This document shows positions 26,412-60,636 of a stretch of 64,000 nt of DNA, piece by piece (within the stretch, counting starts at the first letter, position 1; each line of letters starts with the position of its first letter). This DNA is from Spirochaetota bacterium (lineage in GTDB: Bacteria; Spirochaetota; Spirochaetia; Treponematales; UBA12059). Both the position numbers and the translations under genes were made by a program. The stretch spans positions 62,001-126,000 of the forward strand of contig JAPLSN010000014.1 in the NCBI GenBank assembly GCA_026398615.1, written 5' to 3'. The notes beneath the pieces are model-generated. The model searched no databases. It saw only the letters and a program-made list of their open reading frames with translations, and was not told the origin of the DNA.

Positions 26412-26984
26412 ATGAACAATAATGATATCGTTCCGGGTTTTGACGACGAAAAGGACGATAGCCTTAAGATTCGGCTCCAGCGGCTGGATCAGGATGAAAG
26501 CGGGCGCAAGAAGGTCGATAATTGCCTGGCTCTTTACCTGACCGGCTATATCGATACCTACAATTCCAATTTCTTCCAGAAACGCATCGGGAAAGCCATC
26601 GAATCCGGATTCATGCGCCTCATTTTCAACTGCTCCGGCCTCAATTACGTTTCCTCGACGGGCATCGGTTCCTTTACTGCCTTCCTCAAGTCGGTCAAAC
26701 CCCGCGGAGGGGACATCGTCCTCCTGGAAATCCAGCCTAAAGTATACGAAGTTTTCCAGTTGCTCGGATTTTCCCAGTTTTTCAATATCAAGGACAACCT
26801 CGACGACGCGGTCAACTTCTTCCAGCAGGGCGACCAGACGGCATCGCAGTCTATCTTCCCGAAGATTTTCTCCTGCCCGATCTGCAACAAGAAGCTCAAA
26901 GCCGCGAAACCGGGTCGGTTCAGATGCTCGGAATGCAAGACAATCCTCGCCATCGACGCATCGGGACAGGTCTTCCTCGGATAA
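26412..26984 (+). CDS. STAS-domain anti-sigma antagonist fused to a zinc ribbon
   Basis: A 190-residue protein. Residues about 35-140 form a STAS domain with the SSTGIGSF motif, whose serine is the phosphorylation site in SpoIIAA/RsbV-type antagonists. Residues about 155-182 form a four-cysteine zinc ribbon (CPIC and CSEC). STAS proteins bind anti-sigma factor kinases in partner-switching cascades; no kinase or sigma factor gene is adjacent. The ATG has a GAGGAG site. First gene of an operon with YbjN-like, PspA and winged-helix genes. The ribbon is unusual in general antagonists and may anchor the protein to a partner or to RNA. Confidence 0.9.
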   Translation: MNNNDIVPGFDDEKDDSLKIRLQRLDQDESGRKKVDNCLALYLTGYIDTYNSNFFQKRIGKAIESGFMRLIFNCSGLNYVSSTGIGSFTAFLKSVKPRGGDIVLLEIQPKVYEVFQLLGFSQFFNIKDNLDDAVNFFQQGDQTASQSIFPKIFSCPICNKKLKAAKPGRFRCSECKTILAIDASGQVFLG

Positions 26985-27036: not shown

Positions 27037-27420
27037 ATGAACGGGCTTAACAAGATCGAGCAGTACCTGATCGAACTGAAGATCGAGTACCAGGAAATCG
27101 CGACCGGGACGTTTCTCATCAACGATCGCAGTCGTGGACTCGTGCAGGTCGTCGCGGCATACGACGATCCCATCGTCATCGTGCGAGCCAAGGCCATGGA
27201 AGTGCCCAAGGAAAGGAAACTCGAACTTTTCGAAACGCTCTTGAGGTTGAACGCCGACGACCTGACGCACGGGGCGTACGCGATCGAGAAAAATGAAGTA
27301 ATTCTCGTCGATACCCTCGAGTACGCGACAATGGACCGCACCGAGTTCGAAGCCAGTCTCGATTCCCTCGGCTTTGCCCTCGGAAAACACTATACTACCT
27401 TGGGCGCATACCGCTCCTGA
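27037..27420 (+). CDS. YbjN/CesT-like small chaperone-fold protein
   Basis: A 127-residue protein with an amphipathic N-terminal helix (LNKIEQYLIELKIEYQEI), a beta-meander (TFLINDRS, VQVVAAYDDPIVIVRAKAM) and a C-terminal helix pair. This matches the fold of YbjN and type III secretion chaperones (CesT/Tir). No secretion genes are near. It is 52 bases after the STAS gene and 19 bases before pspA. The co-operonic position suggests a role in the same envelope-stress response. Confidence 0.75.
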   Translation: MNGLNKIEQYLIELKIEYQEIATGTFLINDRSRGLVQVVAAYDDPIVIVRAKAMEVPKERKLELFETLLRLNADDLTHGAYAIEKNEVILVDTLEYATMDRTEFEASLDSLGFALGKHYTTLGAYRS

Positions 27421-27439
27421 AAGATCGAGGAGGCATCGA

Positions 27440-28153
27440 ATGGGACTTTTCGACAGGATCAAGACCCTGCTTTCTTCCAACATAAACGATCTCATCTCGA
27501 AGGCTGAGAACCCCGAGAAGATGCTCAACCAGCTGATCCTCGATATGAACACCCAGATGGTCGAGTCCAAGAAAGCCGTGGCCATGTCCATCGCCGACGA
27601 AAAAAAGATCGAGCGCGAACTGCTCACCCAGAAACAGCAGTCCGAGGATTGGGAGAAAAAAGCCGTGATCGCGGTGAAAGCCAACCGTGACGACCTGGCC
27701 AAGGAAGCGCTCGTCCGCAAGCAGGAATTCGACAATTACTACGGCCAGCTCAAACCCCAGTGGGACGCCCAGAAGGCCTCGGTCGAAAAGCTGAAGGATG
27801 CCCTCCGCCAGCTCCAGAACAAGATCGACGAAGCCTCCCGCAAGAAGAACATCCTGGTCGCCCGCGCCAAGCGCGCCGAAGCCCAGGAACAGATTTCCAA
27901 GACCCTCACGAACATGTCCGGCAATACAAGCGCATTCGACACCTTCGACCGCATGGCCAAGAAAGTGGACGAACTCGAAGCCCGCGCCGAGGCCTCGGTC
28001 GAACTCGAGGACCTCAGCGCCAATACGAGCCTCGAGAAGGAATTCCAGAAACTGGAATCTTCCGGAGCGGGAGCTGACAGCCTCCTCGAGGAGCTCAAGT
28101 CCAAGATGCTGACCCAGGACGCGGGGACGCCGCCCGGCGAACCCAATCCGTGA
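27440..28153 (+). CDS. pspA: phage-shock protein A (PspA/IM30 family)
   Basis: A 237-residue, almost wholly helical coiled-coil protein with the PspA opening MGLFDRIKTLLSSNINDLISKAENPEKML (amphipathic membrane-binding helix, then the ENPEKM signature). Family members polymerise into rods on the inner membrane and limit proton leakage under stress. Length fits the family (220-240). The ATG at 27440 has a GAGGAGG site. Its stop overlaps the GTG of the next gene (GTGA), so the two are coupled. Confidence 0.95.
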   Translation: MGLFDRIKTLLSSNINDLISKAENPEKMLNQLILDMNTQMVESKKAVAMSIADEKKIERELLTQKQQSEDWEKKAVIAVKANRDDLAKEALVRKQEFDNYYGQLKPQWDAQKASVEKLKDALRQLQNKIDEASRKKNILVARAKRAEAQEQISKTLTNMSGNTSAFDTFDRMAKKVDELEARAEASVELEDLSANTSLEKEFQKLESSGAGADSLLEELKSKMLTQDAGTPPGEPNP

Positions 28154-28770
28154 CGATCGAGATCGTCGGGACGCGAATCAACGATCCAGACGGGAAGGAG
28201 CCTTCGGGTTCCTTCCCTTTTTTTTATGCCCGCACTGAAAACCCGAGCTGGAACGCCGACGTCGATCTGTTCGTCATCCCGGTCGGGATGATCGCGGAAC
28301 TTGACTCCGTTCCAGGCTTGGACGCCCCGGTATTCGCGTACGGGAAAGCCGAGAGTCTCGAGTACGCGTTCGCATCGGGGTGCATGGATTACCTCCGCGA
28401 GCCCTGGACCAGGGAGGAGCTGGAATCCCGGGCCCGAGCCCGCTTCTTGATCGCGTTACGCGGCGTTTCCGGCAGGGTCCAGGCGACGCCCGATGGACTC
28501 TCGGGTCCGGGCGGAAAGGTTCCGCTGACGACGGGCGAGTGGAAAACACTCCGCCTGCTCCTCGCCAACAGGACCAATTCGGTGCCCAGGGATGCCATTG
28601 CGCGCTTGCTTGGAGCGGCGACCGAGACTGGTAGTCGGGCTGTCGAGATGACTATTTCGAGGCTGCGACGCAAGTTACGCACGGCCGCCGGCTCCCCTTC
28701 CTGGCGCGCCATTCGCTGCGGCCGGAAACGAGGATACCGGCTTGTGGAACAAGTTGTGGATAACTTTTGA
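28150..28770 (+). CDS. OmpR-type winged-helix regulator with degenerate receiver
   Basis: A 206-residue protein. The C-terminal part (about 110-205) is an OmpR/PhoB-type winged helix, with LTTGEWKTLRLLLANRTNSVPRDAIARLL, VEMTISRLRRKLR and the wing GYRLVE. The N-terminal 100 residues are the size of a receiver but have no clear phospho-accepting aspartate in the expected strand (DLFVIPVGMI). It starts at a GTG overlapping the pspA stop, so PspA and this regulator are made together. It probably controls this operon or other envelope genes (inference). DnaA-box-like sequence lies at its 3' end. Confidence 0.85.
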   Translation: MTIEIVGTRINDPDGKEPSGSFPFFYARTENPSWNADVDLFVIPVGMIAELDSVPGLDAPVFAYGKAESLEYAFASGCMDYLREPWTREELESRARARFLIALRGVSGRVQATPDGLSGPGGKVPLTTGEWKTLRLLLANRTNSVPRDAIARLLGAATETGSRAVEMTISRLRRKLRTAAGSPSWRAIRCGRKRGYRLVEQVVDNF

Positions 28771-29029
28771 TCATGAAACTTTTCTTCTATTTCACGAACA
28801 ACAATACTGCTCAAGAGACAGTTATTCGGAAGCCAATGCTTGACGCCCTTGTAGTAGTGTCTAGTAATTACTTACATTGAATAAAATTATTCATCGACAC
28901 TACCGATGCTGCATCGTAACCCCCGTCGTTCCGCAAGCGTGCAGTTCCAACTTCGGAGGCAGTTTAGTAAAATACTTCCTCCATTGCTTGTGGATAAACT
29001 GTTGATGAGTACCAAAAACCTGTGGATTC
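28755..29029 (+). other. AT-rich intergenic region with DnaA-box-like 9-mers
   Basis: This covers the 327-base gap 28771-29097 and the end of the preceding gene. Two exact TGTGGATAA sequences (28755-28763, 28989-28997) and one partial TGTGGATTC (29021-29029) point the same way. Between them is a markedly AT-rich stretch (about 28862-28895) inside an inverted repeat (GTAGTGTC 28854-28861 with GACACTAC 28896-28903) that itself contains a 7-bp stem (28878-28884 with 28887-28893). This resembles an origin or a DnaA-controlled site, but no dnaA or dnaN gene is adjacent. Confidence 0.5.
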
Positions 29030-29061
29030 CCATGTCCCCGTGACAGGTTCGGGACCGTTTC

Positions 29062-29090
29062 TTGCAAACGAAGCAGTCGCATGCTAGATT
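29062..29090 (+). promoter_or_regulatory. sigma-70 promoter of the 29098 membrane operon, leaderless type
   Basis: TTGCAA (29062-29067), a 17-bp spacer and TAGATT (29085-29090), with 7 bases to the ATG. Confidence 0.7.
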
Positions 29091-29097
29091 GGAGCCG

Positions 29098-29997
29098 ATG
29101 AAAGCGGCACTGTACGTCATTGGCCGTTTCTGGCTCGATTTTATCCTCTGGTTGCTGGCCTTGACGGTCGCCTCCTTCATATTCAATGCCATCCGGTCCG
29201 ATGTTTCCATCCTGACCCTTCCGGCGTCCGCCGCATCGGTCGCGTTGTACGCATTCGCCGCCACCCTGTTGTTTTCCTTCCCCCGGGCTACCCGCCTCCT
29301 TTCCAACCGTCCCCTCGGGTATCTCATCCTGTTCCTGGCCTCTTCCGTCGTCATGTCGGGATTCGCGTTCCTCCTGCCTTTCCTGCCCCCCACGGTCACT
29401 TCTCCCGTCAATGTTCGCCAGCTGCCGACGGACGCCGTCGTTCCGCTCATCGACGGGGACATCTTCATCGGCTCCGCGAGGGACGGCACCGCGAAAAACG
29501 TGATCCTGTTCCGACCCGGCGCTGCGCCGTCCGCGATCTCCCGCCATGCATCCGTCCCCCTGAGCGCGGATGGACGTTCGGTCATCATCGACGGCGTATC
29601 CTATACGCCCTACCTGCCACCTCCGGATCCGCAACCCCCGGTCCTGCATGCCCTTGATTACGAGGGAACCCGCGCGAGGCTCCTGGAGCTGGCCGGCTCA
29701 GGTCTTGCGGAGCGCCTGGCTTTCGCGCTCGCCGTCACCCTCGCCTTCGTCTTCCTCTGGCCGCTTTCGCGCACCGGAGCCTGGCCCATCGTTTCGTTCT
29801 GCGCTTCCTTCGCGGCCGCCGCCGGTGTCTTCGCCCTGCTCGCGCTCCTGTCATCCGATTCGCCGGGGGCCCTGCTCGCCTATGCCGACCTGAAGCTTGC
29901 GCCGTCCTGGATACTGCTCGGAGGCTGCGGGGCCTTCTCGTTCATCCTCGCGCTCTTCGACCTGATCTTCCTCAGGTCGCCCAAGGGCGGGCGTTGA
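29098..29997 (+). CDS. multi-pass membrane protein, unknown
   Basis: A 299-residue protein with three N-terminal helices (about 10-32, 45-62, 75-97), an extracytoplasmic beta-rich domain (about 100-200, with VPLIDGDIFIGSARDG) and three C-terminal helices. The layout of helices flanking a periplasmic domain is reminiscent of half of an Lpt permease, but the sequence is not clearly of that family. It is directly followed by the TPR membrane protein; its TGA overlaps a possible TTG start of that gene. Confidence 0.8.
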   Translation: MKAALYVIGRFWLDFILWLLALTVASFIFNAIRSDVSILTLPASAASVALYAFAATLLFSFPRATRLLSNRPLGYLILFLASSVVMSGFAFLLPFLPPTVTSPVNVRQLPTDAVVPLIDGDIFIGSARDGTAKNVILFRPGAAPSAISRHASVPLSADGRSVIIDGVSYTPYLPPPDPQPPVLHALDYEGTRARLLELAGSGLAERLAFALAVTLAFVFLWPLSRTGAWPIVSFCASFAAAAGVFALLALLSSDSPGALLAYADLKLAPSWILLGGCGAFSFILALFDLIFLRSPKGGR

Positions 29998-29999
29998 CC

Positions 30000-31688
30000 A
30001 TGGCGGCCAAGCGCCTCCCCCTGGTACCGATCATCGTCGGCTTCGTGCTCCTCGGGTACGGAGCCGCCCTCCTCTTCGCGGTCTACGAAGGCACTCCCGC
30101 CAGGATCATCCCCCGGTTCCTCCTCTCGTGGCGGATGCTCAGGGCCGCGATCATGCTCTCGTCGCTGATAATCCCCGTCCTCTTCGCCGCGGCCGCGGCA
30201 TCGGCTTCGTTTACCGTGCATGAAGGAGGGAAGTCCTTCGACGCGGTGCGACCCATCCTGGCTCCTGCGCTGATGCTCTGCGTCCTTTTCTCCTCGTACC
30301 GGCTGATCGCGGTGCCTCCCCTCGTCCGCGCCCTGAGAACGGCCGAAACGACGAGCCGTCATTTCAAGGAAGCCTTCCGGAACGCGGAAGACGCATTCCA
30401 TAACAGGGATTACCCGGGCGCGCAGGAAGCCCTCGCCATCTGCCGAAGGATAGATTCGAACGACCGCGCGTTCTCGGACCTGAACGACCAGGTCGAAGCC
30501 GAAATCATCAAGCGCTCGGCGTCGGCCAACGATGCCCGGATGCCCGATGCGCCGCCGGCCGCATCAGGCATCGTTCCGGCCGAGAACGCCGAAGGATGGT
30601 ATGCCCGTGCCCGCGAAGCTGAGGCCAAGGGAGATTTTCACACGGCCCTCTTTTTCATCGACCGGGCCCTGACCATGTCGCCCGAAGAACCCGCGTACCG
30701 CGCCGAACGCAAGAAGATCCTGGACGCGGTCGCCGCCCTGAAACCGCCTCCCGAGGATACCGTGAACGGCGCCATCTACGCCCGGAAGATCCGTGGATAC
30801 CAGGCCTTGCGCGCGGGAGATCCCAGGACCGCGTACGCCATCTACCTGGAACTCTCGAAGACGGTGCCGAACGATCCGGATGTCGTCCACTACCTCAAGG
30901 AAAGCCTCGCGGAGCTGTCGAAATCGGTCGTATTCCTCGACAACGCCATCAGGGCGCTGGGAGCGTCGCCTTCGGGGAGATTCCTCGTCGTGCGGCGGGA
31001 ATCGGGCGTCGAATACGTGCTGGCCGCGAAACGCGCCGTCGACAGCTGGGACGCGGTGTATTTCGAGGACATGGAACTGGCGGTATTCGAAAACGGGCAG
31101 GCGACGACGAGGGTGTCGTCCCGGTACGCCCGCCTGCACGGGGCGACGGCCCTGCTCAGGACCGTGGATCGCGACGCCCCCGACACCGTGTTTGAACCCC
31201 GGTGGACGGCCGGCAAGCCCGAGCTGTCCTTCGCCGCGGAGATGCCGATCGACCATGAAACCGCCGCGCGGATCCTGTCCCTGCGGAACGGGATGGATGC
31301 CGTGTCATTTTCGACCCTCTGGTCCGGGCTCGACGACGTCAGGCGCTACGGCGTCGATCCGTTGCCGTACCGGAAGGAAATGGCCAACCGCGCGGTATTC
31401 CCGTTCGCGGCGCTGATGTCCGTGCTCCTCGGCGTGGCGTTCGGGGCGCGATTCCGGCGACGGGAAGCCCCGAACGCGCTGGTAACCGCTTTCGGGATGG
31501 CAGTCATGACCGCTTCCGCCGCATTCGTATTTGCCGGGATATCCTGGCTCGGCGGCGGCGTCGTGGAAAACCTCTACGACCTGCTTCCCGCCGCCGGAGC
31601 CTTCTCCGTGTGGATCGGAGCCTCCGCCGTCGCGGTGGCCGGTTCGCTCCTGGCTGCCGGCCGCGCCCTCTCGCATGTCCGCCCCTGA
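30000..31688 (+). CDS. TPR membrane protein with LptF/LptG-like tail
   Basis: A 562-residue protein. Three N-terminal helices (to about residue 105) are followed by soluble helical repeats of TPR type (about 118-300, for example ARAAEAKGDF-like units and ALTMSPEEPAYRAERKKIL). Residues about 315-440 are a beta-rich domain (SGRFLVVRRESGVEYVLAAK, WDAVYFEDMELAVFENGQ) and the last 130 residues hold three helices beginning NRAVFPFAALMSVLLGVAFGARFRR. That last part closely recalls the C-terminus of LptF/LptG, the LPS-export permeases. A TTG at 29994 could also be the start, overlapping the previous stop. The next gene overlaps by 14 bp. Confidence 0.8.
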   Translation: MAAKRLPLVPIIVGFVLLGYGAALLFAVYEGTPARIIPRFLLSWRMLRAAIMLSSLIIPVLFAAAAASASFTVHEGGKSFDAVRPILAPALMLCVLFSSYRLIAVPPLVRALRTAETTSRHFKEAFRNAEDAFHNRDYPGAQEALAICRRIDSNDRAFSDLNDQVEAEIIKRSASANDARMPDAPPAASGIVPAENAEGWYARAREAEAKGDFHTALFFIDRALTMSPEEPAYRAERKKILDAVAALKPPPEDTVNGAIYARKIRGYQALRAGDPRTAYAIYLELSKTVPNDPDVVHYLKESLAELSKSVVFLDNAIRALGASPSGRFLVVRRESGVEYVLAAKRAVDSWDAVYFEDMELAVFENGQATTRVSSRYARLHGATALLRTVDRDAPDTVFEPRWTAGKPELSFAAEMPIDHETAARILSLRNGMDAVSFSTLWSGLDDVRRYGVDPLPYRKEMANRAVFPFAALMSVLLGVAFGARFRRREAPNALVTAFGMAVMTASAAFVFAGISWLGGGVVENLYDLLPAAGAFSVWIGASAVAVAGSLLAAGRALSHVRP

Positions 31689-59664: not shown

Positions 59665-59692
59665 TTGACAGTTTCCCCCCGCTCCCTATACG
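59665..59692 (+). promoter_or_regulatory. sigma-70 promoter of the tungstate operon
   Basis: A perfect -35 TTGACA (59665-59670), a 16-bp spacer and TATACG (59687-59692), directly before the riboswitch-like leader. Confidence 0.75.
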
Positions 59693-59699
59693 ATTATGG

Positions 59700-59820
59700 C
59701 ACTCCGAACCGTTTCGTCCTGGGGGCAGCCCTGCCTATGGCGATCGGTCGAGATCGATACCCCGTCGGGGATTGTCGATCGTGGGTCGCGCCGGAAACGG
59801 CTCGGCCTCCCGCATTTGGA
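59700..59820 (+). promoter_or_regulatory. Moco/Tuco riboswitch (MOCO RNA motif-like)
   Basis: The leader starts ACTCCGAACCGTTTC and ends GGAAACGGCTCGGCCTCCCGCA, matching the conserved outer arms I recall for the molybdenum-cofactor RNA motif. The arms pair: CCGA (59704-59707) with TCGG (59802-59805), and CCGTTTC (59709-59715) with GAAACGG (59794-59800), one mismatch between them. An internal hairpin is centred near 59765. The ribosome site AAAGGAG follows within 20 bases, so control is probably on translation. The downstream tungstate transporter and moeA/moaA genes point to a tungsten-cofactor (Tuco) sensor. The class assignment is from memory and needs a covariance-model search. Confidence 0.8.
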
Positions 59821-59832
59821 AAGGAGACCCCC

Positions 59833-60636
59833 ATGAAACGCATCTTCATCGCCACGGCGCTCGCCGCGGCACTCGTTCTCGGGCTAGCCGCACAATCGCC
59901 CGCGAATCCCCGCCTCCGCATCGCCACGACCACGAGCACCGAGCAGTCGGGCCTACTCGCCGCGATCCTCCCCGCCTTCGAGAAGGCGACTGGCTACCGT
60001 ACCGAGGTCGTCGCCGTCGGCACAGGCGCCTCGCTCAAGATCGGCGAAAAGGGCGACTGCGACGTCGTCATCGTCCACGCGCGCGCCCTCGAGGACGCCT
60101 TCATGGCGGCCGGCTTCGGTGCCGATCGCCGGGACCTCATGTACAACGACTTCATCGTGCTCGGGCCGGCCGCCGATCCCGCCGGTGTCGCGAAGACGAA
60201 GAGCGCGCTCGAAGCCTTCTCCGCGATCGCGAAGGCGCAGGCGGGGTTCGTGTCGCGCGGCGACAACTCTGGTACGCACACGAAGGAGAAGGACATCTGG
60301 AAGGCCGTCGTCATCGCCCCCGCCGGAGTCTGGTACAAGGAAGCTGGACAGGGCATGTCCCAGGTGATCCTCATGGCCGAGCAGATGGGAGCCTATACCC
60401 TCGCCGACCGCGGCACCTGGTTGGCGATGAAAGACAAGTCCTCGCTGAAGATCCTCTCGCAGGGTGACAAGCTTTACTTCAATCCGTACGGCGTCATCAC
60501 GGTGAATCCCGCCAAGTGGCCCCAGGCGAACTACGCGGGCGCGAAAGCCCTCATGGAATGGCTCACCGGCCCGACCGGCCGCGCCCTTATCGAAGGCTAC
60601 AAGATCGGCGGGGAGCAGTGCTTCTACCTCTACTGA
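59833..60636 (+). CDS. tupA: tungstate-binding periplasmic protein TupA
   Basis: A 267-residue binding protein with a signal peptide (cleavage near AAQSPAN). It has the TupA landmarks RIATTTSTEQSGLL, GTGASLKIGEKGDCDVVIVHA and SRGDNSGTHTKEKDIW, which distinguish it from molybdate (ModA) and phosphate binders. It captures tungstate for the TupBC transporter. The ATG at 59833 has a strong AAAGGAG site; longer in-frame readings cross the riboswitch and are rejected. Confidence 0.95.
   Translation: MKRIFIATALAAALVLGLAAQSPANPRLRIATTTSTEQSGLLAAILPAFEKATGYRTEVVAVGTGASLKIGEKGDCDVVIVHARALEDAFMAAGFGADRRDLMYNDFIVLGPAADPAGVAKTKSALEAFSAIAKAQAGFVSRGDNSGTHTKEKDIWKAVVIAPAGVWYKEAGQGMSQVILMAEQMGAYTLADRGTWLAMKDKSSLKILSQGDKLYFNPYGVITVNPAKWPQANYAGAKALMEWLTGPTGRALIEGYKIGGEQCFYLY

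Follow-up and report, generated by a model that had tools for sequence, protein, structure and literature searches.

A second DnaA-box element on the oriC plan in Treponematales: a candidate origin mimic with a possible datA-like role

In this study, we analysed a window of 64,000 nucleotides (contig C26, positions 62001-126000) from a spirochaete draft genome of 3,380,143 bp in 43 contigs, and found at 28755-29029 of this window a DnaA-box element that repeats the layout of oriC at a second locus. With moderate confidence, and from sequence comparison, we propose that this element is an origin mimic, that is, a second DnaA-assembly element built on the oriC plan of the order, which would not be the chromosomal origin and would restrain re-initiation in the manner of E. 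coli datA. It probably holds or inactivates DnaA and thereby helps to time replication.

Exact DnaA boxes occur only twice in the 64 kb window, starting at 28755 and at 28989, 234 bp apart and co-oriented, and both copies read TGTGGATAA on the plus strand, equal to TTATCCACA on the minus strand. The left exact box (TTATCCACA, 28755-28763, minus strand), which was aligned in relatives, overlaps the final codons of the winged-helix gene upstream, and a weak box with two mismatches (TGTGGAACA on the plus strand; 28743-28751, minus strand), read by eye, also belongs to the left array. The right exact box (28989-28997, minus strand), located by exact motif scan, is followed 11 nt further on by a weak box with two mismatches (TGTTGATGA, 29000-29008, minus strand) and then by a partial box read from the sequence (TGTGGATTC, 29021-29029, minus strand, two mismatches), and all exact, weak and partial boxes of the element share one orientation. 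The first-pass annotation had described two exact co-oriented boxes and one partial box with an AT-rich core, and both observations are borne out: the element has 44% GC in a window of 64.5% GC, and the core at 28851-28900 falls to 28% GC by composition. Its nested inverted repeats hold in part, as there is a 20-nt repeat with 75% complementarity (28854-28873/28884-28903), whereas the other repeat is just 10 nt long with arms 394 nt apart. A central 25-bp palindrome-like site, TAATTACTTACATTGAATAAAATTA (28865-28889), found with a matrix built without the window, falls inside the 20-nt repeat. Its centre, 28877, is 122 nt from the start of the left box and 112 nt from that of the right box, and it is an imperfect palindrome in which 6 of 10 arm positions pair. 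The region had been called origin-like, and a DnaA-box cluster with an AT-rich region that repeats the oriC layout deserves that name.

The gene directly upstream of the element encodes a winged-helix (Trans_reg_C; wHTH) protein (28150-28770, plus strand), preceded by genes for a PspA/IM30-family protein of uncertain start (27374-28153, plus strand) and for a STAS-domain/zinc-ribbon protein (26412-26984, plus strand), which is the most conserved marker of the locus. We infer from its sequence that the N-terminal part of the wHTH protein resembles a degenerate receiver of the orphan response regulator type; orphan response regulators of this type act at origins in other bacteria. Directly downstream lie genes for a predicted membrane protein with no family match (29098-29997, plus strand) and for a membrane protein with TPR and LptF/LptG domains (29994-31688, plus strand). 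A possible promoter, TTGCAA-17-TAGATT (29062-29090, plus strand), was noticed right before the downstream ATG, and a similar arrangement was read by eye at loci of relatives; if this promoter is real, its transcript would be leaderless. From a promoter consensus scan of the element none is reported, TTGCAA-17-TAGATT being a by-eye reading. Other kinds of element were considered for the site: a tRNA scan gave none, no match to the consensus of dif or parS was noticed, and a riboswitch or other RNA element was rejected, as the Rfam gathering scan of the window matched only a molybdenum riboswitch elsewhere. This match, to the Moco (molybdenum/tungsten cofactor) riboswitch, lies at 59690-59842 and scores 60.6 bits, above the gathering score.

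The genome contains seven exact DnaA boxes, two in the element, two upstream of dnaA (C9:166968 and 167193) and three singles (C2:162501, C14:22133 and C26:54024), the first of which sits inside a long reading frame named by eye as CheA-like. The spaced box pair occurs twice in the genome, in the element and just upstream of dnaA, with no occurrence of the reversed-pattern control, in agreement with the earlier remark that two exact copies so close together are unlikely by chance. The ATG of dnaA is at C9:167225, and about 440 bp of AT-rich DNA separates the gene from the preceding one, named gyrB-like by eye from its sequence.

The GC skew of relatives distinguishes the two pairs. In the single-contig relative G031 (3,239,340 bp), 19 of the 20 10-kb bins that lead up to the contig end have negative skew and 38 of the first 40 bins after the contig start have positive skew, and its box pair at 3239129/3239331 lies just before dnaA, where the skew turns; its second element, at 260.2-260.4 kb, is within positive skew and shows no turn. 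On contig C18 (223 kb) of G007, once the first 20 kb are set aside, the cumulative skew is lowest next to the dnaA pair (72.7 kb), and it runs past the second pair (189.6 kb) without turning. The 200 kb around the element of G054 are noisy and mostly negative in skew, without a clear turn at the element. In the window genome the skew is weak; its cumulative curve is lowest near C9:170-175 kb, within a few kb of dnaA, and does not turn at the element (C26:90.8 kb). Since the skew of relatives reverses at the dnaA pair and passes the second element without a turn, the element is most probably not an oriC displaced from dnaA; by position and skew, the dnaA-side element is oriC and the window element is something else. 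The displaced oriC, one of two readings in the first-pass annotation, has the paired exact boxes with an AT-rich core on its side, but with an equal pair in the gyrB-dnaA region and the skew turn there in relatives we regard it as most improbable. GC skew, proposed there as one means of locating the origin, gives a turn at the dnaA pair in G031 and G007 and a fainter signal near dnaA in the window genome, and the better cluster beside dnaA, which it had taken as counter-evidence, exists as a box pair that equals that of the element without being better.

The element was followed in relatives through the STAS gene, whose protein is 64-74% identical in four distant members. Among the best 80 STAS-marked loci of 523 relatives (spirochaete genomes and MAGs, many labelled Treponema), a strict pair, defined as forward boxes with at most one mismatch in total, spaced 195-255 and within 4.5 kb downstream of STAS, is present in 52, compared with 0/80 for the reversed motif and 1/80 for the opposite strand. 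First-order Markov resampling, from which three loci with less than 900 bp downstream were left out, gave 0/77 in each of ten runs against 51/77 observed. The strict pair is absent from the other 28 loci, three of which have less than 400 bp downstream. Of 21 loci scanned behind the wHTH gene, 20 have forward boxes separated by about 210-248 bp, the miss being the short locus G019. The pair pattern occurs in 51 of 116 genomes of the order (reversed-pattern control, 3/116) and class-wide in 87 of 199 (control, 2/199). On the oriC side, a hand count found, upstream of dnaA in 18 of 29 loci, a pair in which neither box has more than one mismatch, several of the misses being loci that end at contig ends, and at least 13 genomes by hand count contain both elements (G000, G007, G008, G009, G011, G013, G014, G015, G017, G025, G028, G031 and G034). 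The gene directly upstream varies between wHTH, PspA, STAS and a sugar-kinase-like gene, and the element is kept after PspA or STAS in lineages lacking YbjN, PspA or wHTH. Judged by these comparisons, the element is old and orthologous across Treponematales. Four single-contig genomes (G024, G027, G032 and G118) have STAS and no element by the pair or composite searches; G032 is presumably a reduced genome of the T. pallidum type, going by gene order. The retention of STAS without the element in these genomes indicates that the element is dispensable in some lineages.

In relatives, the distance between the element and dnaA is about 118 kb (G007 and G013), 260 kb (G031), 348 kb (G054), 403 kb (Breznakiella) and 0.2-0.9 Mb in others. 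The second element was also seen in a cultivable relative, Breznakiella homolactica RmG30. We considered whether the element always points the same way relative to oriC and rejected this, as the orientation is consistent in G031, G007, G013 and G054 but contradicted by the f3 genomes. Outside the order, a box pair, often with a central site, is widespread in class Spirochaetia (L311-L340, as oriC, second element or both). One record, L275, is titled Treponema denticola and has 62% GC, which we take not to fit that species, and it may be mislabelled.

Gibbs sampling of the interiors of 50 second elements returned a motif resembling TAATTCCTTA-N5-TAAGGAATTA, with 13.1 bits of information compared with 8.4 bits in shuffled sequence. 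A symmetric matrix was trained on 45 of 49 second elements, the window left out, and its score of 23.5 at the window site is the best on contig C26. The central site beats 95% of shuffles in 45 of 50 second elements, of which 49 are the training pool and the window is outside it. Distances from the centre to the boxes cluster near 100, 111, 122 and 134 nt, and a periodicity is seen in the box-to-box spacings of 49 non-redundant elements (R 0.675 at 11.7 bp, reached by 0 of 5000 random sets), although part of this 11-bp ladder arises because boxes recur in tandem every 11 bp. Passive titration, in which the boxes soak up DnaA without a defined complex as in the DnaA-box clusters of B. subtilis, would agree with paired exact boxes and with a locus about 0.1-0.9 Mb from dnaA in the relatives placed, but for a simple sink a conserved central site and fixed phasing would be superfluous, so we consider it improbable.

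The same matrix was applied to 19 held-out oriC elements, and in 12 of them its peak falls at a distance of 109-115 nt from either box. For 1000 column-permuted matrices the corresponding count averaged 2.57 and was at most 10, none reaching 12, and the best score averages 16.9, compared with at most 9.5 under permutation. A matrix-free count of self-complementarity in oriC likewise peaks 112 nt before the right box (4.42; mean 2.84, sd 0.45), and the site in the oriC of G031 is 101/101 nt from its boxes. The finding of the central site at the same place of oriC by a matrix from second elements indicates that oriC and the second element share one plan, which, as read from these positions, is DnaA boxes, about ten turns, a central site, about ten turns and again DnaA boxes. 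Across C9 and C26 of the window genome (352 kb), the two best matrix matches are oriC and the window element, and the top two on C18 of G007 are its two elements, the second of which was in the training set. In G031, however, several background matches outscore the second element (13.6), so the matrix alone is not specific in AT-rich genomes. A composite search for the site with both arrays succeeded in 50 of 77 regions downstream of STAS, with none for the reversed pattern, none upstream and 6 on the opposite strand, and 19 of 30 class-level pair loci pass at a matrix score of 12, against a permuted maximum of 5. The gyrB-dnaA oriC of the group (C9:166968-167225, corresponding to L001 830-1087) was also seen to have co-oriented arrays about 223 bp apart with a palindrome-like site at their centre, and a motif similar to CTACTACATG...TTTAGTAG. 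An extra dyad, GTATA-N-TATAC or TGTCTATNNATGTAGACA, was noticed by eye about 40-50 bp after the left boxes in f1 and f5 second elements (L150, L153 and L160 are examples). The wHTH protein was considered as the binder of the central site and is unlikely, because the site is kept in f3 loci and a wHTH match was found in 0 of 6 f3 genomes.

Beyond the boxes and the central site, oriC and the second element have little sequence in common. TACTACA or TTTAGTA, picked after the Gibbs motif search, is present in 10 of 19 oriC and in 2 of 49 second elements, and our guess is that it belongs to unwinding. This scarcity in second elements bears on the reading of the element as an additional replication origin, conditional or rarely used, in favour of which stand its box arrays, its AT-rich core and its central site, all as in oriC; together with the missing skew turn at the element in G031 and G007, and the lack of a clear one in 200 kb of G054, it makes such an origin quite improbable.

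The strongest rival is promoter control, given that the membrane gene usually persists downstream and that promoter regions are bound by DnaA in the spirochaete Borrelia (PMC9879097). The arrays would regulate the downstream membrane and LptF-like genes, perhaps also wHTH, and couple envelope work to replication, with the dnaA copy as the same module used for autoregulation. A membrane-type gene stays downstream of the element in families f1, f3, f4 and f5 despite changes of the gene upstream, and both the element and the dnaA module are upstream of a co-oriented gene. On the other hand, about 110 bp separate the right array from the possible start downstream of it at the element, against about 30 bp from the dnaA ATG, so the array-to-gene geometry differs while that within the element is constant, and in at least three loci (G085, G094 and G114) the downstream gene is not the membrane gene. 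The DnaA-controlled promoter of the first-pass annotation fits the promoter-side position of the element, but alone it does not explain the repeated oriC layout, and as the main explanation we find it rather unlikely. The origin mimic and promoter control could both be true.

Considering the origin mimic further, the placement of two arrays about ten turns either side of a symmetric site suggests a bending dimer that joins the arrays. A dimeric DNA-bending protein would bind the central site and fold the two DnaA arrays together, and the first candidate would be a member of the HU/IHF family. Hbb, an HU-like protein of Borrelia, would be a guess at the binder of the central site. At oriC, the folded DnaA complex would open the DNA; at the second element, DnaA would load without firing. 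As the element gives no sign of being an origin, its likeliest use would be to hold or inactivate DnaA after initiation: once the element has been replicated, DnaA would be titrated or its ATP hydrolysis stimulated, and re-initiation would be restrained as by E. coli datA.

Extra-origin DnaA clusters are already known. To our knowledge, a DnaA-inactivating locus that controls replication has been worked out in detail only in E. coli, and datA is not known to copy the layout of the E. coli oriC. The locus datA is described as non-origin intergenic DnaA boxes around a correctly spaced IHF site, away from oriC, which with IHF inactivates DnaA after initiation by ATP hydrolysis (DDAH) (PMC4585315; PMC5295017; PMC10950094). 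The element is likewise a set of multiple DnaA boxes outside oriC around a spaced central site. IHF sits on the central site of datA, and that of the element is a palindrome with a putative binder; the element has the oriC layout and belongs to another phylum, and a hydrolysis role would be assigned to it by analogy only. The neighbours of datA are glyV-X-Y and yjeV, whereas those of the element are STAS, PspA, wHTH and membrane protein genes, so the locus is not homologous. Similarly, the available part of PMC5295017 reports six oriC-proximal DnaA-box clusters (DBCs) in B. subtilis that sense free DnaA, and describes no three-part layout for them. The element resembles these in having boxes clustered outside the origin and origin-proximal, with distances taken from relatives only, and differs in being a single element. 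The element matches the gyrB-dnaA oriC in its two co-oriented arrays and in the distances at which its central site lies from them, but it has no skew turn and other neighbours, and it mostly lacks the oriC-enriched motif. E. coli DARS1 and DARS2, which reactivate DnaA, are like the element non-coding DnaA-box loci away from oriC with a protein site, which is putative here. Their boxes are arranged differently from those of the element (PMC4585315). The element may have a DARS-like role, the direction of the effect being unreadable from sequence.

Among the titles and abstract openings listed in searches of an open-licence library, none names a second origin-like DnaA element in spirochaetes, nor a second locus of fixed position at which the oriC plan is conserved together with the central site of oriC. 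In its fullest form, which we advance more tentatively, our proposal is that spirochaetes keep a permanent non-firing copy of oriC, the same bent DnaA complex minus the unwinding part, which would consume or inactivate the initiator at each replication; this would be a datA-like timer that arose independently from the oriC plan, with one protein on both palindromes. If this is true, non-origin DnaA complexes have evolved more than once, the oriC plan of a large spirochaete group is defined, and a new protein that binds oriC and is shared with the second element comes directly within reach.
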